DNA of 10,108 nt from a bacterium (GTDB lineage: Bacteria; Hydrogenedentota; Hydrogenedentia; Hydrogenedentiales; SLHB01): positions 1 to 10,108 of the forward strand of contig JAAEQP010000705.1 in assembly GCA_024231375.1 (NCBI GenBank), given 5' to 3'. The notes beneath the pieces are model-generated. The model was not told the DNA's origin. It did no database searches and worked only from the letters and a program-made list of their open reading frames with translations. Shown piece by piece: positions 331 through 10,055 of this stretch. The translations under genes were made by a program, and so were the position numbers. Positions within the stretch are counted from its first letter, which is position 1. Every line of letters starts with the position of its first letter.

Positions 331-966
331 TCAATCGACCGTGCGCTTGAGGAGACAGCGTCCCCGGTGAGGAAGCCGCGGGTGGGGTCTGAACTTGACG
401 GTTTGGACGATGCGAAATCCCACTCGTTGGTAGAACGCGATGGCATCTTCCCGATCCTCCCATGTGAACAAGCAGAGGGAGTCGAGACCACTCGCACGGG
501 CCGCGGAGCAGGCCTGGCACATGAGCCGCCGCCCGATACCGTGCCCTTGATAGGGCGGGAACACGGCCACGTTGGCGATGAGGAGACTGTTCGTGGGCAC
601 GGGCGTTTGCCTGCACCGGGCGACCAAGCGTATGCGTCTGGCGAACCACCGGAGCATGGCGACCGGACCCAAGCCAACGGGACCTTTCATGGCCGCCACG
701 ACGTGGTTGTCGAGAGTGCTCATTTCAGAGGAGGGGATGGCGTTGAAGCCGCCTAGGACGCGTTCCCCGTCGATGGCCAGCGTGAAATGGCGAAACGAGT
801 ATGGGGTGTTGTCCGTGCGGCAAAGGGCAGTGACGGTATCGCGGACGCTCAGAGCTGGCGCTAGACCGTCCAGCAGAAAGGCGAAGGTATCTTCGTCGGC
901 GGTAAGGCAGATCTCGGCTAGATCCGAGGCATCCTCCGGTTGCGCGCGTCTGAATTGCACGTCCAT
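331..966 (-). CDS. GNAT-family N-acetyltransferase
   Basis: This 211-residue protein is a GCN5-related acetyltransferase, which transfers the acetyl group of acetyl-CoA to an amine. Beta-strand 4 and the CoA-pyrophosphate loop (motif A) are clear: IANVAVFPPYQGHGIGRRLM at residues 130-149, with the Q-x-x-G-x-G loop QGHGIG at 140-145. The C-terminal motif B is at 177-184 (AFYQRVGF), followed by the usual last strands. The N-terminus (FRRAQPEDASDLAEI) is the standard GNAT opening. The length is somewhat above the minimal GNAT domain of about 150 residues. The extra sequence is a middle segment at about 75-125 (EMSTLDNHVVAAMKGP and a basic RWFARRIRLVARC stretch) that could help bind substrate. 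The protein appears cytoplasmic. The ATG at 966 is preceded only by a weak purine run (GTAGAGAG). The substrate cannot be told from sequence. It is transcribed divergently from the radical SAM gene and is probably co-transcribed with the small peptide downstream. Confidence 0.88.
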   Translation of the reverse strand: MDVQFRRAQPEDASDLAEICLTADEDTFAFLLDGLAPALSVRDTVTALCRTDNTPYSFRHFTLAIDGERVLGGFNAIPSSEMSTLDNHVVAAMKGPVGLGPVAMLRWFARRIRLVARCRQTPVPTNSLLIANVAVFPPYQGHGIGRRLMCQACSAARASGLDSLCLFTWEDREDAIAFYQRVGFRIVQTVKFRPHPRLPHRGRCLLKRTVD

Positions 967-1176: not shown

Positions 1177-1215
1177 AGGCGCGCCGGAGAGTGTCTACGG
1201 AAACCCCTGCCCTAC

Positions 1216-1220
1216 GGAGA
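1216..1220 (+). promoter_or_regulatory. Ribosome binding site deciding the radical SAM start
   Basis: GGAGA lies 9 nt before the TTG at 1230-1232. The in-frame GTG at 1191 has a GGAGA directly touching it, with no spacer, so it is a poor start. The site therefore favours TTG at 1230. Confidence 0.55.
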
Positions 1221-1229
1221 TCGGTCACA

Positions 1230-2648
1230 TTGAAACCGTTGCGAGTCTTTCTAGTTAGACTCGGTGTACGCGATAATTCGCAGCCGCACGTGAGTCCACC
1301 CCTTGGATTGCTCTATCTCGCGGCGTATGTGCGCGAGAAGTTCAATCTTGAGATCCGTCTGGTGGACCAACGGCTCGAGAACTGTAGCATCGACGAGTTG
1401 GCGCGCCAGGTTGTTGAATTCGAGCCGGATATCCTCGGTATTGGGTCGGTGTCGGCGGCAGGCGTGCTGATCCCGGAACTGACGGAGAAGGTGCGTTCGG
1501 CGTGTCCGGATACGCTTATCGCGCTTGGAGGCCCTCATGCGTCGGCCAGCAAAGAGGCGGCCCTGACAGGCAACGACGCGGACCTGGTGGTGGTCGGGGA
1601 AGGTGAACTGACCTTTGAACGAATCATTGAAACCTACCTAGACAACAGAGATTACAGCGAGATTCCGGGCCTAGTCCGACGCGAGTCGGAGGGGGAAGCG
1701 GTTACGAATCCTGGCGTCGTGCCGTTTGTAGCGGATCTGGACAGCTTGCCCATGCCGGCCTACGACCTGATTGACGTGCGGCGATACTGGCTGCTCCATT
1801 CGTTCGTGTTGGTACCCCGGCGCAAGTACATCTCGCTCATGAGCAGCCGGGGATGCCCGTTCCTCTGCAACTACTGCCACAAGATCTTCGGTAAACGGTT
1901 TCGGGGGCATTCGCCCGAACGGTTAGTGGATGAACTGGAGTACTTCGTGGGCAAGTATGGCGCCCGCGACGTGGAACTGCTGGACGACGTCTTCAACTAC
2001 GATTACGACCGGGCGTTGGAAGTGTGCGAACTGATAGGGAAGCGGGATCTGAAGATCAAGATGGCGTTCCCGAACGGTCTGCGCACGGACACGCTCGACG
2101 AAGAATTGATTGACGCCATGGTCGACGTGGGGTTCTACTACGCGAGTTTCGCGTTGGAATCAGGATCGCCGCGCGTGCAGAAGCACATGGGAAAACGCCT
2201 GGACATCGATGCGTTTCTCAAGAACGTGGAATACGCCACGAATCACGGGGTCTTCGGCAACGGATTCGCCATGCTGGGGTTCCCGACCGAAACCGAGGCC
2301 GAGATGCGGGAGACGGTGGACGTGATGTGCGGTTCGCGGGTCCATACTGGGCAGTTCTTCACGGTGACGCCGTTCCCGGGCAGTGAACTCTACGACGAAG
2401 TCGCGCGGACCATGCCGGAGCGGCTGGAGGCGCTCGACCTATCGCATTCGACCTTCGGTAGAATGAAGGTGAACCTGTCTGACGCGCCCGATGAGGTGCT
2501 GTTCGCATGCCAGCGCGAGGCGAACCGCCGGCTGTACCTCAACCCCAATCGGGTCCTTCGTCTACTGCGCGACCATCCCAAGCCGTGGAGCTTTCCGTTG
2601 TACGTGCCGATGTTCCTTGAGAAAGTCACGAAGGGGCTCTTTGGCTGA
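1230..2648 (+). CDS. B12-binding-domain radical SAM enzyme
   Basis: This 472-residue enzyme (485 if begun at GTG 1191) uses a 4Fe-4S cluster to cleave S-adenosylmethionine and, in this family, usually a cobalamin cofactor as well. The N-terminal third is a B12-binding-type Rossmann fold: KPLRVFLVRLG start, PPLGLLYLAAYVRE at about residues 23-36, then DILGIGSVS, GGPHAS and VVVGEGE at about 67-125. The radical SAM core has the cluster motif CPFLCNYC (Cys 209, 213, 216; spacing Cx3Cx2C), a downstream LDDVFNYD, ALESGSPRV at about 308-316 and FAMLGFPTET at about 346-355. The C-terminus (LYLNPNRVLRLLRD) is the helical tail common in these proteins. The classical DxHxxG cobalamin motif is not evident, as in many members of the class, so cobalamin use is inferred from the fold. 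Relatives include BchE and the hopanoid methylase HpnP, plus many enzymes of lipid, glycan and antibiotic biosynthesis. The exact substrate is unknown. It is the first gene of the rightward block, separated from the YfhO-like genes by the 2681-2916 repeat. Confidence 0.85.
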   Translation: MKPLRVFLVRLGVRDNSQPHVSPPLGLLYLAAYVREKFNLEIRLVDQRLENCSIDELARQVVEFEPDILGIGSVSAAGVLIPELTEKVRSACPDTLIALGGPHASASKEAALTGNDADLVVVGEGELTFERIIETYLDNRDYSEIPGLVRRESEGEAVTNPGVVPFVADLDSLPMPAYDLIDVRRYWLLHSFVLVPRRKYISLMSSRGCPFLCNYCHKIFGKRFRGHSPERLVDELEYFVGKYGARDVELLDDVFNYDYDRALEVCELIGKRDLKIKMAFPNGLRTDTLDEELIDAMVDVGFYYASFALESGSPRVQKHMGKRLDIDAFLKNVEYATNHGVFGNGFAMLGFPTETEAEMRETVDVMCGSRVHTGQFFTVTPFPGSELYDEVARTMPERLEALDLSHSTFGRMKVNLSDAPDEVLFACQREANRRLYLNPNRVLRLLRDHPKPWSFPLYVPMFLEKVTKGLFG

Positions 2649-2680: not shown

Positions 2681-2916
2681 TGCATAGCGCGAAACGGGGG
2701 ACAGTGGGGCTGTTGAAAAGGTCTCGGCTCTGGCGCTTAGTTCGCGATAAGCGGGGGACAGCCACCCATTGTTGCCCTAAGAAGCGCAATAATGGGACGC
2801 AAGAGCTTGGCAGTCCCCGTTTGTCGCTTCTGTTCCGGTGGGCATGTGACTTTTTCAACGGCTCCACAGCCCCGTCTCGCTTCGCTCGCTTGGTACAGTC
2901 CCCGGTTTCGCTTGCA
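2681..2916. repeat. Nested inverted-repeat element (MITE/REP-like) in the 2649-2965 gap
   Basis: The gap between the radical SAM gene and the first YfhO-like gene holds this element and no gene I can support. Three pairs of inverted arms nest around a core hairpin. The outer arms are 2681-2705 and about 2895-2916 (TGCA...GCG..AAAC.GGGGAC..T on both, with small indels). The second pair is 2706-2719 (GGGGCTGTTGAAAA) and 2851-2874. The inner pair is 2744-2764 (GCGATAAGCGGGGGACAGCC then A) and 2808-2827 (TGGCAGTCCCCGTTTGTCGC). The right side carries an extra segment (2874-2893) that is itself palindromic. The GGGGACAGCCACCCATT-type motif resembles the REP-like elements mobilised by RAYT (TnpA_REP) transposases, which I know from established work on that class. 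No transposase is in the window, so mobilisation would be in trans. An apparent frame running through it (from 2792) is spurious. Confidence 0.65.
2765..2796. repeat. Core hairpin of the repeat element
   Basis: CCCATTGTTGC (2765-2775) pairs with GCAATAATGGG (2786-2796), with one G-T wobble (2771/2790) and a 10-nt loop. It is the apex of the nested inverted repeats and would form a strong hairpin in a read-through transcript or a cruciform in DNA. Confidence 0.7.
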
Positions 2917-2965: not shown

Positions 2966-5359
2966 ATGAACGATTCACCCGAAGCCGCCTCTACAGAGCG
3001 GGTGGTGTTCCGTGAATTCGCGGTTCACGCCGCTATCCTCGTGGTCATTCTGGCCATTCTGTTCCCGGCCACCTTCCTGCGGGGCGAACTGATCAGCCCG
3101 GAAGGGCACTTCTTCAAGGATGACCCGTGGCGCCGGCACATGCCGGACGGCGCCGAGATTCCGGCGAACGACCAGACCTTTGAGTTCGTGTCGGGCTGGA
3201 ATCCTTTCTACGTTTTCGGACGACGGGCCATGGACGAGGGCCAATGGCCGTTGTGGAATCCGTATTACCTCATGGGAATCCCCCTTCTCGGGAATTTCCA
3301 ATCGGCTTTCTTCTATCCGCCGCGCATGGCCCATGCCCTCTTCGAGAACCATGTCGGCACAACGATCCTCATGCTGATTCGTCTGTGGATGTGCGGGTTT
3401 GTCGCCTACGTGTGCGGGCGACTGCTGGGATTGGCGCGAGGCCCGTCGCGGTTCTGGTCGCTTGGGTGGATGCTATGCGGCTATGTGATGCACTGGGCCA
3501 TGTGGACCATCCCCGACGTGGCTGCCTGGTTTCCCGTCCTCTTCGTGGGGATCGAGTTGGTCCTGTCAGGACGCTACCGGCGGGGCTTCTTCACGACGCT
3601 CGTCGGAGGCGTTCTCGTGATCATTGCGGGTCACCCCGAGAGCGCTTTCGGGTTCTGTCTTGGCCTGGGCGCCTACTTCCTGCTACGGCTGGTTGCCGAT
3701 CGGTCGTCCATGAAGCATATCTTTGTCTCGGTGGTCGTGCTGTCGATCGCATGGGCTGTGGTCCTCCTTGTTTGCTGCGCTCAGATTCTGCCGTTCCTGG
3801 AGTTTTTGGTCCGTAGCCATACCTTCGCCTACCGATCGGAAGGGGGCAACGTCGAGCGTTTCGTACCCATCTTCCCGGGGTTGGCCACTGTGGCGTTCTG
3901 GGTACCGCGCTTCTTTGGCGCATCGCCCGACTCCAACCTGTGGCTCCTGACGCGGGAAAGCCCCTACAATCTGGGACAGACCGTTCCGTTGAACTCGAAT
4001 TTCATCGGTCTGGTGTATCCCGGTATAGCGGTGTGGCTGGGTCTGGGACTGCTCGTCGCTTGTGTGCGCACCGATTCCCTCGCGCGGCGACGGTTGCTGT
4101 GCATGGCGGTCCCCGCGGTGATCGGGGTCATCCTGGCACTGAATCTCCCCGCCACGGCCTTCGTTGACCGCTTGCCTCTCGTCAACAGCATGCATCGCCT
4201 GTACCACCTGTGCTTCTTTCTTTTCGCAGTACCGTTCCTTGGCGCGTTGGGACTTGACCGCTGGCTCCGCGGCAGAGAACCGCGACGCGCGCTGAAATGG
4301 CCCCTGATCATCGTTGGCGTGATGGCGGCCCATGTGTCCGTTCTTCTTCTCTTCTACTGGCCAACGATCTCCTTTGAGGGCGTGCATGTCTATGTTTTGA
4401 CGCAAGTCGGCTTGGCCGCACTTTTCACTGGCGCCGGTCTTGCAGCTCTTCTCATGCATATCCGCCGGCCCCGCGCTCGATTGACGGCCGGACTGTTGAC
4501 GGTTCTGCTCGCTCTGGACCTCTTGGTTGCTGCGCGGGGGGTGAATTCTACTGCGCCCAGGGAGCACTTGGATGTGCGGACCGACCTCATGGACTACATG
4601 GCGTCGCTGGGGCCGGGTAGCCGTTTCGATGTGGCGCTGGCGAACATTATGCTCGGGCCTCAGGCCAAACAGGGCATCCAGATCGCGGGCACATACGATG
4701 CGCTGGCCCCCGAGCGCTATTCGCGATTCTTGTACACATGCTACGCCGAGAACTGGGATAGCATCGGACCGGCATCGTCCGTCACGCACTACGTGGTGCG
4801 CGAGGGCGCCATGGGCGACGGCAATGACGAGTTGCGGCTTGAAGCGCGACTCGAGGGGTTCGACATCGTTCGCATTGCCAACGCTCTCCCGAGAGTGCGC
4901 CTGGTGCCGCGTTTGGAAGTGCTCCCGAACCGAGAAGCCTTGTTCGAGCGCCTCTGCGATCCATCGATCAACCCCGCGGAGATCGCTGTGACGAGTGAAC
5001 CCCCTGCCGAGATCCCCTCCCTCACCAGCGAGGGCTCGCCCGGCAGTGCGTCCATTGCGCGACACACGCCCTGCGAGGTGGACGTGGATGTTCAGGCCGA
5101 GGGGAATGCGGTTCTGGTGTTTGCGGACGAATACTACCCTGGGTGGAAGGTCTACGTGAACGATGAACCCGCCGAGCTGTTCCCGGTATACTACGCGTTC
5201 CGTGGGGTATGTGTCGGGAAAGGGAACCACCGCGTCCGTTTCTCGTATGAACCGGCGAGTTTCCGGGTGGGAATGACGGTTTCAACAGGGACACTGTTTG
5301 TCGGCGCCCTTGCAGCCGCGGTTGTATTGATGCGGCGGAAGAGCCGTCTAGCCACTTGA
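2966..5359 (+). CDS. YfhO-family polytopic membrane protein, copy 1
   Basis: This 797-residue integral membrane protein has a GT-C-like plan. In Bacillus, YfhO transfers sugar from a polyprenyl carrier to teichoic acid on the outer face of the membrane; transfer here is inferred. The layout is: first helix at about 19-35; first outer loop with E73 in DQTFEFVSGW; QWPLWNPYYLMGIPLLGNFQSA at about 93-114 (key residues W94, P95, N98, P99, G104, N110); PDVAAW at 183-188; GHPESAF at 222-228; VPRFFG at 313-318; about ten or more helices up to about 525; then a soluble domain ending in YYPGWKVYV (723-731) and LFPVYYAFRG (738-747), with a last helix at about 769-789. Start: an ATG at 2948 and a long upstream frame from 2792 also exist, but 2792 lies inside the repeat. 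Alignment with copies 2 and 3 favours ATG 2966; no strong ribosome site is visible at either. It differs most from the others: FFKDDPWRR replaces the APW motif of copies 2 and 3. It leads a three-gene run, with 21 nt to the next gene. Confidence 0.82.
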   Translation: MNDSPEAASTERVVFREFAVHAAILVVILAILFPATFLRGELISPEGHFFKDDPWRRHMPDGAEIPANDQTFEFVSGWNPFYVFGRRAMDEGQWPLWNPYYLMGIPLLGNFQSAFFYPPRMAHALFENHVGTTILMLIRLWMCGFVAYVCGRLLGLARGPSRFWSLGWMLCGYVMHWAMWTIPDVAAWFPVLFVGIELVLSGRYRRGFFTTLVGGVLVIIAGHPESAFGFCLGLGAYFLLRLVADRSSMKHIFVSVVVLSIAWAVVLLVCCAQILPFLEFLVRSHTFAYRSEGGNVERFVPIFPGLATVAFWVPRFFGASPDSNLWLLTRESPYNLGQTVPLNSNFIGLVYPGIAVWLGLGLLVACVRTDSLARRRLLCMAVPAVIGVILALNLPATAFVDRLPLVNSMHRLYHLCFFLFAVPFLGALGLDRWLRGREPRRALKWPLIIVGVMAAHVSVLLLFYWPTISFEGVHVYVLTQVGLAALFTGAGLAALLMHIRRPRARLTAGLLTVLLALDLLVAARGVNSTAPREHLDVRTDLMDYMASLGPGSRFDVALANIMLGPQAKQGIQIAGTYDALAPERYSRFLYTCYAENWDSIGPASSVTHYVVREGAMGDGNDELRLEARLEGFDIVRIANALPRVRLVPRLEVLPNREALFERLCDPSINPAEIAVTSEPPAEIPSLTSEGSPGSASIARHTPCEVDVDVQAEGNAVLVFADEYYPGWKVYVNDEPAELFPVYYAFRGVCVGKGNHRVRFSYEPASFRVGMTVSTGTLFVGALAAAVVLMRRKSRLAT

Positions 5360-5364
5360 CGATC

Positions 5365-5369
5365 GGGAG
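5365..5369 (+). promoter_or_regulatory. Ribosome binding site of YfhO-family copy 2
   Basis: GGGAG lies 11 nt before the ATG at 5381 and just after the copy 1 stop at 5357-5359. It supports this start and translation from the same transcript. Confidence 0.45.
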
Positions 5370-5380
5370 TTGGGGAAGCC

Positions 5381-7726
5381 ATGGGCCGTGAACACAGAAG
5401 GGTGACGGTTCGTGAGTGCCTGATTCAGTGCGTTATCCTGGCGGCGCTGCTGATGGTCCTCTTCCCCGGCGTGTGTTTCAAGCAGGAACTGGCCGTGCCC
5501 GGCACCCTGCTGTATGAGTGGGCGCCTTGGAGTGAGCACGCGCCCAGCGAGTACGCTCCCGCGACAAACGACTCCACCATCGAGATACTCACTGTGTTCG
5601 CGCTGTGGTATTCGCTGACCCGGGAAGCAATCGAGGCGGGAGAGTGGCCGCTCTGGAATCCCTGGGAATTCGGGGGGCTGCCTCTGCTCGCCAATTACCA
5701 GAGCGCGATCCTCTATCCAATCCACCTACTTCACACGTGGTTCGACACGTACGCCGCCATGAGCATCTATGTACTGATGAAGGCCATGCTATGCGGATTC
5801 AGTGCCTATGTCTGCGCACGGGTGATGGGGCTCGGCCGTCCGGCCTCTCGTCTGGTGTCCGTGGCGTGGATGTTGTGCGGGTTCAACATCGTGTGGCTCT
5901 ACTGGCCGCTGCCCGACGTCAATGCATGGCTTCCGATAGTGCTGATCGGCGCTGAGTGGATCCTGGCCGGTCGATCACGCAGAGGATTCTTCGCATTGTC
6001 GTTCGGCGCCGTGCTCATGTTGCTGGCGGGCCACCCGGAAACGGCGTTCGTGAACGGGTGCGGGGTCGGTCTCTACTTCGTCGTGAGGCTCATCCTGGAC
6101 CGACGTCCGGCTTCCCATGGGGTTCGGGCCGTAGGGTTGGCCCTCGGCGCGTGGGCGATAGCGCTGCTCGTGTGCGCCGCCCAGATCTTGCCCTTGGCCG
6201 AGTACATCGCGCACAGCCACACCGAGGGATTCCGTGCCGTCAGCGAGAAGGACCGCTTCTTCGTTACCTACGGCGGGCTTGTGGCTATGTGGGTGCCACG
6301 TTTCTTCGGATGCACGTCGGAAGCGAACTTCTGGGGCGACATGTGGGGGGATCTGAACTCCACGTTCCAGAATCTCACGTATGTGGGCATCCCCGTACTC
6401 GCGTGTGCCGCACTCACGTGTGCATCGGGCAAGTGGGCGCCACAGCGTAGACGACAGGCCATCGCGCTTGCGGTTGCAGGGGGTTTTCTGTTCCTTCTGG
6501 CCTGCAACTCTCCTGCCGTTTCCCCCCTGAACCGCCTGCCTGTGATACGCGCCATGCGTGGCGTCTACTACATGGGGTTCGTCGCGTTTGCTCTCGCCAT
6601 GATTGCGGGAATCGGGCTTGAACACTGGTGGTCGAGACGGCGAAGCCTTCGGGCGCTCTTGCTTCCATTGCTGGTCCTCGCGCTTCCCACAGCGGGCGTG
6701 TTCGTTCTGTACCGTGTCTATGGTCCCACTCTCGAGGCCGAGGGCCTCGCGGACTACGCCCAGTACCAGATTGTGGCCGCTGCCGTGGTCGCCGTGGCGA
6801 CGCTAATAATGCTCGTCCAGGCTATGGGATCCGCTCGCCCGAAGTTGTGGATCTCGTTGATGGCATGCCTACTCGCTGCGGACTTGATCCATGCGGCGCG
6901 GGACATTCATCCGACGTGCCGGCGATCGGACATGTTTGTCGATACCGATCTGACCCGCTTTCTTCAGGAACGCGAAGGGACGATACGCGTAGAGGTCAAT
7001 CCCTCCCAGATACGGACAGGCATTCTTCCAAGCTATCGGATCGAGGAACAATGGGGATACGACGGAATCTATCCGAGACGGATCCTGGAGTTCTACGGGC
7101 TTGCGGGAACGGGCAACTGGGCGAACGTGGGCCGACTTGCCAGCGTAACCCACTACGTCTTCCCCGAAGGAGGCGGCCCTCCTTTGGACGACAAATGGGA
7201 GTTCGTGCAGACGTTGGACGGCCTTGACCTCTACGAGGACAAGACGGCCTTCCCGCGAGCCTTCCTGGTGAACGCGTTGACCTGCCTGGAAAGTGAGGAG
7301 GCTGTACTGCGCGCAATGTCCGATCCCGAGTTCGACCCGATGGTCGCGGCGTTGACGGACCGCCCGGGCGTGTCGGTTGCCGCGAGCGACCGTGTGCCGA
7401 GTAGGGAGCAGAGTGCCGAAATCCTGGAACGCTCGTCCGGACGCACGCAGGTGAGTGTGTCGACAACCTCGGAAGCCGTTCTTGTGTTGACCGACGCATG
7501 GTACCCAGGCTGGAAAGCGACGATAGATGGGGAAGCGGCCGAGATCTTGCCCGTTTACCATGCATTCAGGGGCGTCATCGTACCGCCGGGCGAGAGTGTC
7601 GTGGCATTCCGCTACGATCCTATGTCGTTCAAGGTCGGTCTGGGCGTTTCCTTCGTGGCGATGAGCGGGGGGATCGCCTTGGCTCTGGCTATGCTGCTGA
7701 GAGCACGGCGGGCGCGTCATGGCTAA
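5381..7726 (+). CDS. YfhO-family polytopic membrane protein, copy 2
   Basis: This 781-residue protein is homologous along its whole length to the genes on either side. The first helix is at about 12-30, followed by ELAVPGTLLYEWAPW (36-50). The first outer loop has E68 (NDSTIEILTVF), aligned with E73 of copy 1 and E77 of copy 3. Further motifs are EWPLWNPWEFGGLPLLANYQ (88-107), PDVNAW (178-183), GHPETAF (217-223), VPRFFGCTSEANFW (305-318), and RAMRGVYYMGF with the GLEHWW end (390-416). The C-terminal extracytoplasmic domain contains QWGYDGIYPRR (557-567), SVTHYVFPEG (588-597), WYPGWKATIDGE (707-718) and ILPVYHAFRG (722-731). The last helix is at about 750-772, then a basic tail RARRARHG. The WNP motif typical of YfhO is intact. 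It is probably an outer-face glycosyltransferase or glycan-modifying protein using a lipid-linked sugar; substrate unknown. Its TAA stop lies inside the start of the next gene (8-nt overlap). Confidence 0.85.
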   Translation: MGREHRRVTVRECLIQCVILAALLMVLFPGVCFKQELAVPGTLLYEWAPWSEHAPSEYAPATNDSTIEILTVFALWYSLTREAIEAGEWPLWNPWEFGGLPLLANYQSAILYPIHLLHTWFDTYAAMSIYVLMKAMLCGFSAYVCARVMGLGRPASRLVSVAWMLCGFNIVWLYWPLPDVNAWLPIVLIGAEWILAGRSRRGFFALSFGAVLMLLAGHPETAFVNGCGVGLYFVVRLILDRRPASHGVRAVGLALGAWAIALLVCAAQILPLAEYIAHSHTEGFRAVSEKDRFFVTYGGLVAMWVPRFFGCTSEANFWGDMWGDLNSTFQNLTYVGIPVLACAALTCASGKWAPQRRRQAIALAVAGGFLFLLACNSPAVSPLNRLPVIRAMRGVYYMGFVAFALAMIAGIGLEHWWSRRRSLRALLLPLLVLALPTAGVFVLYRVYGPTLEAEGLADYAQYQIVAAAVVAVATLIMLVQAMGSARPKLWISLMACLLAADLIHAARDIHPTCRRSDMFVDTDLTRFLQEREGTIRVEVNPSQIRTGILPSYRIEEQWGYDGIYPRRILEFYGLAGTGNWANVGRLASVTHYVFPEGGGPPLDDKWEFVQTLDGLDLYEDKTAFPRAFLVNALTCLESEEAVLRAMSDPEFDPMVAALTDRPGVSVAASDRVPSREQSAEILERSSGRTQVSVSTTSEAVLVLTDAWYPGWKATIDGEAAEILPVYHAFRGVIVPPGESVVAFRYDPMSFKVGLGVSFVAMSGGIALALAMLLRARRARHG

Positions 7727-10055
7727 CCGGGGGGGACATATTCGGTCCTCGGCGCGGCCGACGGGCGTTACGAAACGTGAAGTCGCGATCCACACCCTGA
7801 TTCTCCTGGCGATCCTGGTCGTACTCTACCCAGGTGTGTTCCTGAAGGGCGAGGTGGCGGTCCCCGGCTCGCTCATCTACCAGTATGCGCCGTGGTCCCA
7901 TCACGTGCCCGAGGACACAGAGATCGCCGAGAACAAGCCTTCAGAAGAGGTGCTGCTTCAGTTCACGCTGTGGTATTCGCTGACGCGGCAGGCGATTCGG
8001 GAAGGCGAGTGGCCCCTCTGGCATCATCTCGAGTTCACGGGGATGCCGCTCCTTGCCAACTACCAGAGCGCCGTGTTCTACCCGACTCACGTGCTCCACG
8101 CCGTGATCGATGTCTTCACAGCGATGACGGTATACGCGGTCCTGAAGCTGTGGTTGTGCGGGTTCACGGCCTACTTGTGCGCGCGCGTCATGGGGCTCGG
8201 GCGAAACGGGGCGCGGTTCGCTTCAATCGCGTGGATGTGCAGTGGCTTCAACCTGACATGGTGCTACTGGCCGGAGGCCGATGTGAGTGCTTGGCCGCCC
8301 GTCATTCTCATGGGTGTCGAACTGCTTCTCCAGAAGCGTTACCGTCGCGGATATGCCGCCATGGCGCTGGGCGGCACCCTTCTTCTTCTAGGGGGCCATC
8401 CTGAATCGGCGTTCGTCGCGGCTCTCGGCATCGGGTTGTATATGGCTATCCGATTGGGACTGGACCGGCGAAGGGGGGGCGACTTGTGGCGACCGCCAGC
8501 GTATGCCGCCGCGGCCTGGGCGTCTGCCCTTCTCGTGGCATCGGTTCAATTGATACCGTTTGTCGATTACCTGACGCAAATCCATCATCGCGTGGGGGAG
8601 GGGGGCCTGAAGCCGTTCCTCACGCCCCAAGCACTCGCGGTATTCCTGGTGCCTCGTTTCATGGGGTCCAGTGCAGACGGTGCCTATTGGGGGCCTCACG
8701 ACAATTCAAACTACGTTTCCCTTGTCTACGGAGGAATCGTGACTTGGGTTGCTGTGTCGCTCCTCCTATCGCGTGGTCATTCGCGCCAGCGACTCACTCA
8801 GATGGCCGGCCTTGCCGCGCCCGCCTTTGTATTTGGGTTGATGGCCTTCGACGTGTCGATTGTCCGGCCGCTGCAGTCCATCCCACCATTCAACGCTATG
8901 TGGGGAATCTGGTTCATCACGTTTCCGATGCTGGCTCTGGCGATCCTCGGAGGGTGCGGTGTCGATCATTGGTTCAGCCGCGATCGCCACTGTCGTGACC
9001 TGATTGCGCCTCTCTTGTTTGCAGGATGCGCGGGGGGACTACTTCTTTGGGTGTATTCCCTCCAGAAGGGGATCCTCGTTCTTGAGGGGAATGGGGGATA
9101 CGTTCGCATCCAGTTGATGACGGCCGGCGTTCTTGCACTGTCCGCGTTGGTGATCGCGGCATTCGCCATGAGCGGGCACTCGCGCAAGACGGCCGCGGTT
9201 CTTGCCTGTGGCTTGCTTGCCGTCGATCTCGTTATGTTCGGCCAGGATCTTCTGCCCACGGACCGCCCCGACACGCTGTTTCCCGACACGGAACTGACCC
9301 GTCTGTTGGCGACCGAGTCGCCGCCGTATCGCGTGAGCGTGATGTCGACTCCCATTCATCCCGGCATCATGCCAAACTACGGAATCGCACAACTCTGGGG
9401 TCATGATGGCATGCATCCTGGTCGCGTCATCGATCTTCTGGGCCTAGCGGAACGCGGGTGCTGGCAAGCCGCCGAGCCGCTGTGCGCGGTCCGTCATTAT
9501 CTCTTCCCTGAAGGGACGTTCAGACCGGAGGAAGGCCAGTTCCGACTCGCAGAGACGCTCGAAGGGATTGACGTCTTCATCAATGATCGCGCTCTTCCTC
9601 CGGCTTTCCTGACCGGCGCCGTCCGAGCGTTGGAATCAAAGGAAGCACTGTTCGACGCCATGTGCGACCCCTCCTTCGATCCGAAGGAGGCGGCTTTGAC
9701 AGATGCCCCACCAGCAGAGACACTCCCATCCTTCGTTGGGCATGAAACCGGGCGCGTTGAATGCTTCGGTCGCCGCACGAACTTCGTGGGGCTCGAGGTG
9801 CGTGCCGAGAGACGATCCGTTCTGGTTCTCGCTGACACCTACTTCAACGGATGGCGCGCTGCCGTGGATGGAGAGCCTGTGGAGGTGTTCCCGGTCTTCC
9901 ACGCATTCCGTGGTATTCTTGTGCCGCCGGGACACTACGAAGTCGTGTTCTCGTATCGTCCGATGTCTTTCACCATGGGACTGTGGATCTCGGTGGCGGG
10001 GATGGTGCTCAGTTGCCTGTATTCCCTGCGACGACTTCGCGATCGTGGCAAATGA
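7719..10055 (+). CDS. YfhO-family polytopic membrane protein, copy 3
   Basis: This 778-residue paralogue starts with ATG inside the end of copy 2 (ATGGCTAA overlap). Without a clear ribosome site of its own, it is probably translated by coupling. The first 20 residues are basic and polar, then a helix (about 21-40) and EVAVPGSLIYQYAPW (45-59), close to copy 2. E77 (PSEEVLLQF) is the Glu shared by all three. The motif EGEWPLWHHLEFTGMPLLAN (95-114) has HH in place of the NP seen in copies 1 and 2. ADVSAW (187-192), GHPESAF (226-232), VPRFMGSSADGAYW (311-324) and GVDHWF (414-419) follow. The C-terminal domain has LWGHDGMHPGR (559-569), AVRHYLFPEG (590-599), NGWRAAVDGE (710-719) and VFPVFHAFRG (723-732), with a last helix at about 752-770. 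The copy is more like copy 2 than copy 1. It is an inferred outer-face sugar transferase or glycan modifier, possibly with altered specificity. Its stop overlaps the start of the next gene. Confidence 0.84.
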   Translation: MANRGGHIRSSARPTGVTKREVAIHTLILLAILVVLYPGVFLKGEVAVPGSLIYQYAPWSHHVPEDTEIAENKPSEEVLLQFTLWYSLTRQAIREGEWPLWHHLEFTGMPLLANYQSAVFYPTHVLHAVIDVFTAMTVYAVLKLWLCGFTAYLCARVMGLGRNGARFASIAWMCSGFNLTWCYWPEADVSAWPPVILMGVELLLQKRYRRGYAAMALGGTLLLLGGHPESAFVAALGIGLYMAIRLGLDRRRGGDLWRPPAYAAAAWASALLVASVQLIPFVDYLTQIHHRVGEGGLKPFLTPQALAVFLVPRFMGSSADGAYWGPHDNSNYVSLVYGGIVTWVAVSLLLSRGHSRQRLTQMAGLAAPAFVFGLMAFDVSIVRPLQSIPPFNAMWGIWFITFPMLALAILGGCGVDHWFSRDRHCRDLIAPLLFAGCAGGLLLWVYSLQKGILVLEGNGGYVRIQLMTAGVLALSALVIAAFAMSGHSRKTAAVLACGLLAVDLVMFGQDLLPTDRPDTLFPDTELTRLLATESPPYRVSVMSTPIHPGIMPNYGIAQLWGHDGMHPGRVIDLLGLAERGCWQAAEPLCAVRHYLFPEGTFRPEEGQFRLAETLEGIDVFINDRALPPAFLTGAVRALESKEALFDAMCDPSFDPKEAALTDAPPAETLPSFVGHETGRVECFGRRTNFVGLEVRAERRSVLVLADTYFNGWRAAVDGEPVEVFPVFHAFRGILVPPGHYEVVFSYRPMSFTMGLWISVAGMVLSCLYSLRRLRDRGK

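Follow-up and report, generated by a model that had tools for sequence, protein, structure and literature searches.

The YfhO-like gene array

We analyzed a 10,108-nucleotide (nt) stretch of DNA from a bacterium of the phylum Hydrogenedentota (positions 1 to 10,108 of contig JAAEQP010000705.1, assembly GCA_024231375.1), referred to below as the window. It carries three consecutive genes for YfhO-like membrane proteins, named copies 1, 2, and 3, which are arranged head to tail; a gap of 21 nt separates the first two, and the last two share an 8-nt overlap (Table 1). The contig ends 53 nt past copy 3. A first-pass annotation of this DNA had described three full-length YfhO-like genes, and their coordinates, spacing, and end-to-end alignment all proved correct. 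It had also taken the tight packing to indicate co-expression; the packing was confirmed, and co-expression is compatible with it rather than demonstrated by it. A scan for promoters and terminators gave no signal exceeding that of shuffled sequences. The start of copy 1 is ambiguous: its frame is already open from an ATG at position 2792, and the database entry for this copy (P0121) has 803 amino acids (aa).

Table 1. Positions of the genes, motifs, and repeat element in the window (pLDDT, predicted local distance difference test)
Feature	Position	Strand	Description and basis
YfhO-like protein (predicted GT-C), copy 1	2966..5359	+	797 aa; open reading frame, PF09586 45.9 bits, model pLDDT 92.9
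YfhO-like protein (predicted GT-C), copy 2	5381..7726	+	781 aa; open reading frame, PF09586 51.2 bits, model pLDDT 94.5
YfhO-like protein (putative GT-C), copy 3	7719..10055	+	778 aa; open reading frame, PF09586 49.9 bits
GHPE motif, copy 1 (residues 222-225)	3629..3640	+	from the alignment of the copies
GHPE motif, copy 2 (residues 217-220)	6029..6040	+	junction of two helices (boundaries from the model); near-invariant in the subfamily
B12-binding radical-SAM gene	1191-2648	+	upstream of copy 1
GNAT-type acetyltransferase gene	331-966	-	opposite strand to the array
Nested inverted repeats, intergenic	2690..2911		dispersed, REP-like; lies between copy 1 and the radical-SAM gene

In a whole-length alignment, copy 1 shared 38% identity with copy 2 and 34% with copy 3, and copies 2 and 3 shared 42%. 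A search with copy 3 recovered copy 2 at 647 bits, and the similarity is far above chance. All three copies passed the curated cut-off of the Pfam YfhO model PF09586 (28.5 bits), in agreement with the first-pass assignment. The best matching stretch was confined to the last ~70-80 residues of each copy (positions 764-835, 754-835, and 766-835 of the 835 in the model), leaving most of the length of the model unmatched, and copy 2 carried one additional, weaker stretch. Because the match is mainly C-terminal, we call these proteins YfhO-like rather than YfhO proper.

The AlphaFold models of copies 1 and 2 matched the GT-C glycosyltransferases STT3, Pmt4, AftD, PglB, and ArnT, and both predicted models have the multi-helix membrane fold of this class. 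A sequence search with copy 2 against solved structures gave no match, and a profile search gave a single match at chance level. In NCBIfam, the window copies showed weak matches to PgfM1 and PgfM2, with E values of 5e-5 to 0.03, far under the curated cut-offs.

Homologues of the copies came largely from metagenome bins, and the named sources were mostly Candidatus Hydrogenedentota. The protein searches scored the ~8,000 candidates sharing the most words, and a scan of 68 Hydrogenedentota genomes was limited to 15 scored candidates in each; the copy numbers given here are therefore minimum values. In that scan, 38 genomes had a match with an E value of 1e-60 or lower, 33 of them above 300 bits and five with weaker matches only (about 220-290 bits). 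Among 79 loci, the 28 near ones (L001-L028) comprised 26 from Hydrogenedentota or Hydrogenedentes, one from an uncultured bacterium, and one from a Bacteroidales bin; the remaining 51 were distant, with 21-27% identity. Judged from these homologues, the YfhO-like subfamily is found mostly in Hydrogenedentota bins. A search of viral contigs yielded no relative. Close homologues also occurred in bins with other names (P0076, Nitrospiraceae; P0132, Bathyarchaeia; P0151, FCB group; L022, Bacteroidales), which could reflect errors in binning or genuine transfer.

Residues conserved in the subfamily are mostly kept in each copy, including the GHPE motif, Glu36, Arg147, and Arg307 (copy 2 numbering). 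H218 and E220 of the GHPE motif are present in 98% and 96%, respectively, of the 252 subfamily rows aligned. Column 36 holds Glu in 219 of these rows and in all three copies, whereas distant relatives mostly have Arg or Lys there (35 of 62 rows).

Phylogeny and array composition

To place the three copies among their homologues, we used a 256-row FastTree tree and a 45-row IQ-TREE tree with a mixture model, which agreed on the main points. In the IQ-TREE tree, copy 1 clustered with P0100, P0088, P0122, P0123, P0125, and P0126 (support 98/91), and copies 2 and 3 fell within a small clade that includes P0002, P0003, and P0004 (94/99). The nearest relative of copy 3 was P0003, with which it formed a pair (97/95) and which comes from another contig; copy 2 was grouped, less surely, with P0002 and P0004 (87/48). 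The trees disagreed on P0008, which adjoined copy 1 in the FastTree tree (90) but not in the IQ-TREE tree. When the three window copies were forced into one clade, the log-likelihood was 76.6 lower and the topology was rejected by the approximately unbiased (AU) test (p-AU 3.99e-08), whereas an enforced exclusive pair of copies 2 and 3 was not rejected (p-AU 0.186).

We also examined how copies are arranged in other genomes. Among the 33 genomes with matches above 300 bits, eight carried more than one copy, with adjacent copies in three of them (G001, G055, and G068); a single copy was seen in the other 25, a lower bound because the bins are incomplete. In these arrays, neighboring genes overlapped by 1, 4, 16, or 19 nt or were separated by 51 or 12 nt, with starts chosen by profile. 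Reading the DNA directly, we found that the three array genes of G055 form an exclusive clade, i.e., they arose by local duplication, and that a further copy ~10 kb upstream is unrelated to them. On contig C141 of G068, also read directly, two neighbors belong to far-apart lineages, their smallest common clade spanning 243 rows.

Elsewhere, neighbors were inferred from equal contig size and a common source label, giving 23 contigs with two to six members each, which together with four contigs read directly made a tally of 27 contigs and 67 members. The inferred contigs need care: the sole one that could be checked on DNA (contig size 19272, P0010 and P0069) was false, as only P0069 was there. 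This was also the sole pair lacking a common source label, and its removal hardly altered the result. Members of the same contig were somewhat closer to each other than shuffled ones (mean 1.92 versus 2.25; 0 of 2000 shuffles as low). However, the nearest tree neighbor lay on the same contig for only 11 of the 67 members. Local duplication thus occurs, but a mixture of old lineages appears to be the rule in most arrays.

These results bear directly on the tandem triplication proposed in the first-pass annotation, in which a single gene would have undergone two duplications within this lineage, followed by divergence of the copies. Rejection of the common clade refutes such a single local event for all three copies together, and the pairing of copy 3 with a protein from another contig and the small share of same-contig nearest neighbors also speak against it. 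We therefore regard a recent triplication as quite improbable, even though the window genes are packed head to tail, local duplication is known in the subfamily (the G055 trio and two pairs on the inferred contigs 10643 and 69571), same-contig members are closer than shuffled ones, and an exclusive pair of copies 2 and 3 is tolerated by the data. Instead, the array looks like a group of old paralogues that have been kept together. Judged by the tree, the branching of copy 1 is much older than the split between copies 2 and 3, which itself probably predates the window lineage.

The first-pass annotation had already singled out copy 1 as the outlier because it has DDPW instead of the APW shared by copies 2 and 3. 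This placement holds, but it is carried by the tree and not by the motif, which is uninformative on branching order: the residue before the conserved PW is variable (Pro in 127, Ala in 36, and Asp in 5 of 252 rows), and PPW (P0002 and P0004) or EPW (P0003) is found in the proteins closest to copies 2 and 3. Separate homologues for each copy, which the same annotation had considered a sign of assembly by transfer, were largely found. However, transfer is not implied, because arrays mixing far-apart lineages of the subfamily occur elsewhere, on contig C141 of G068 and, by inference, on others.

A horizontal transfer that brought unrelated copies into one locus would account for the grouping of each copy with homologues from other contigs and for a combination of copies found on no other contig among those listed. 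Against this, the GC content is even across the three-gene array (about 60-63%), and Hydrogenedentota account for most of the near relatives (26 of 28 loci). Moreover, P0002 and P0003, which stand on the sides of copies 2 and 3, respectively, share a contig size (17804) and a source, as do P0018 and P0100 (48109). We consider such a transfer very improbable.

Proposed donor synthesis and role of the three copies

Genes for GT2 enzymes resembling dolichol-phosphate-mannose synthase (DPMS) are linked to YfhO-like genes in some relatives. Of 37 relatives' loci in which 1.5 kb or more of flanking DNA was available on one side, five have such a gene next to the YfhO gene or in its vicinity. In G055 (locus L116), it is upstream of the array of three genes, ~65 nt away; in G058, G004, and G005, it is convergent with the YfhO gene and overlaps its 3' end; and in G056, it is about 1.9 kb away. 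The G055 enzyme matches dolichol-monophosphate-mannose synthase (best PDB match, E 2.2e-30) and ArnC-type enzymes. The 68 genomes contain eight particularly close GT2 genes (E below 1e-80). Six of these are near a YfhO-like gene, five by a subfamily member and the sixth beside a distant member, and those of G059 and G048 have no YfhO-like gene within the 9-11 kb fetched. Three of five weaker GT2 relatives were examined (G001, G067, and G068), and none was near a subfamily gene.

We consider it likely that the three copies are separate extracytoplasmic GT-C glycosyltransferases that depend on lipid-carrier sugars and form a standing set of old paralogues. In this pathway, a cytoplasmic DPMS-like GT2 would make a polyprenyl-phosphate sugar, and a flippase would carry the lipid-linked sugar across the cytoplasmic membrane. 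Each YfhO-like copy would then take the carrier sugar at the outer face of the membrane and transfer it, most likely, to a surface glycan, lipid, or protein. All three would be active enzymes serving different acceptors or different positions in one glycan, which is compatible with the conserved residues kept in each copy. The presence of three transferases by one donor maker in G055 suggests one donor with several acceptors or positions, for which the pgf operon described below offers a precedent, and this one-donor arrangement may extend to the window.

Two other explanations let the copies act jointly. The three paralogues might form one mixed complex, with co-translation serving its assembly. 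The overlaps and short gaps between genes, seen here and in other arrays, fit this idea, and there is a precedent in the mycobacterial embCAB genes, whose three arabinosyltransferases are described as forming a heterodimer (EmbA-EmbB) and a homodimer (EmbC; PMC7305291). However, with a single copy seen in 25 of 33 genomes, a hetero-oligomer is seemingly dispensable for function, and the composition of arrays differs between contigs; such a complex thus seems unlikely. We are similarly doubtful of an assembly line in which one GT2-derived sugar would feed anciently diverged YfhO-like enzymes whose combination differs between genomes and which act on one surface glycan in turn or as a mixed complex, the catalytic acid of the first loop having moved to Glu36 from the Asp site found in distant relatives.

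Several observations weigh against three separate glycosyltransferases. Similarity of fold, here between predicted models and known enzymes, is by itself no proof of activity. An Asp at column 42 is present in 36 of 62 rows of distant relatives and in 132 of 252 subfamily rows but in none of the three window copies; Glu36, which all three keep, is one candidate for the catalytic acid of the first extracytoplasmic loop. No GT2 or flippase gene is apparent in the 10.1-kb window, 32 of the 37 relatives' loci have no DPMS-like GT2 nearby (their flanks are often short), and the GT2 gene of G005 carries an in-frame stop. In the array carriers G001 and G068, the closest GT2 relative sits on a different contig, and the 8-9 kb read there include no subfamily gene. 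A GtrA-type flippase (PF04138) was found in just two of eight relatives' genomes, compared with 7 of 14 control genomes; if a flippase takes part at all, it would thus usually be another protein. Finally, no contig among those listed unites the copy 1 clade with that of copies 2 and 3.

Loss of the column-42 Asp from all three copies would also fit a role as non-enzymes, that is, scaffolds or acceptor-binding membrane proteins retaining the GT-C fold. We give this explanation very little weight, as most conserved residues are kept in every copy and GT2 genes that would make the donor are linked in some relatives.

Known systems and flanking features

The kind of enzyme proposed here is already known. 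In the CsbB-GtcA-YfhO system, as described in PMC8035078, the C55-P sugar produced by a GT-A enzyme is moved by a flippase and then transferred outside by a GT-C enzyme. The subfamily resembles this system in the DPMS-like GT2 near the YfhO gene of five relatives, in the predicted GT-C fold, and in the C-terminal PF09586 match, but the window has three consecutive GT-C genes rather than one, and GtrA was found in only two of the eight relatives' genomes. Because the acceptors described for CsbB-GtcA-YfhO are teichoic acids of Gram-positive bacteria (lipoteichoic or wall; PMC8035078), the acceptor in the window must presumably differ.

A second comparison is offered by the pgf operon of Streptococcus mutans, pgfS-pgfM1-pgfE-pgfM2. 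According to PMC5856776, deletion of pgfM2 leaves a partly modified protein and deletion of pgfM1 an unmodified one, suggesting ordered action. The operon groups a glycosyltransferase with two related multi-spanning membrane proteins, and the weak NCBIfam matches of the window copies point to PgfM1 and PgfM2. However, the S. mutans cluster has two membrane proteins and the window three, and the matches are below the cut-offs. The Emb proteins are more remote: their chains have about 1,030-1,080 residues, belong to a different GT-C family, and gave no sequence match in the structure and profile searches described above. The "component 27" family, a YfhO-like GT-C family of 4,889 sequences that is set apart from the reference YfhO, was reported from structure predictions as previously undescribed (PMC10584680). 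Like the window copies, it consists of bacterial proteins annotated as YfhO and structurally related to STT3 and PglB (PMC10584680). Compared by description only, its representatives are shorter, with a median length of 665 aa versus 778-797 aa in the window.

We found no report of arrays of this kind in the open-licence literature, a search that mostly leaves subscription journals aside. The subfamily, confined largely to one uncultured phylum, occurring in arrays in several of its genomes, and sometimes linked to GT2 genes, gives the large uncharacterized YfhO-like family a testable setting. If the proposed pathway is correct, glycosylation from lipid-carrier sugars by YfhO-type enzymes, characterized mainly in Gram-positive walls, would extend to Hydrogenedentota, and the arrays would reveal how groups of GT-C paralogues are retained and reshuffled.

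Other genes around the YfhO-like genes were considered as partners. In several relatives, these encode a hybrid kinase/HDOD protein, a GGDEF protein, a sulfatase, a nucleotidyltransferase, or an inositol phosphatase; they differ from genome to genome and were set aside. Distant YfhO-like genes (94-167 bits) lie several kb from subfamily genes in G055 (L115, 11881-14460), G058 (L118, 14180-16504), and G056 (L127, 11176-13800), and in G058 a second DPMS-like GT2 directly adjoins a distant YfhO-like gene. In G055, the GT2 and the three-gene array are immediately preceded by acyltransferase-3 family genes (L116, 3-1073; L115, 15225-17918), which may point to an acylated surface glycan. Downstream of the same array, a reading frame at 11072-14125 of L116 begins with sigma-70-type regions followed by several carboxypeptidase-regulatory-like repeats.

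Within the window, the radical-SAM gene was rejected as a partner: relatives of at least 400 bits occur in 11 of the 33 YfhO-subfamily genomes, never on the same contig, and tblastn at E 1e-10 was negative in all 46 relatives' loci. At E 1e-40, its relatives are present in 37 of the 68 Hydrogenedentota genomes, the best with 43-54% identity. This family is multi-copy in several Hydrogenedentota genomes, and two copies adjoin on contig C174 of G051. The GNAT gene was likewise rejected, being on the opposite strand and having no relative in the relatives' loci at E 1e-5.

The intergenic inverted repeats at 2690-2911 have outer arms of 17 bp at 88% and inner arms of 26 bp at 81%, with a DNA fold z score of -3.97. 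A 301-base query containing the repeat matched 19 of the 68 Hydrogenedentota genomes, several of them many times, and the recurring portion was mostly the 3' part (about 2866-2912). The element looks like one of the repetitive extragenic palindromic (REP) type and is probably not part of the YfhO-like array. Y1 transposase genes (PF01797) were found in six of seven genomes chosen with the repeat and in three of five chosen without it, and on contig C507 of G023 a Y1 transposase gene lies about 210 nt from a copy of the repeat.
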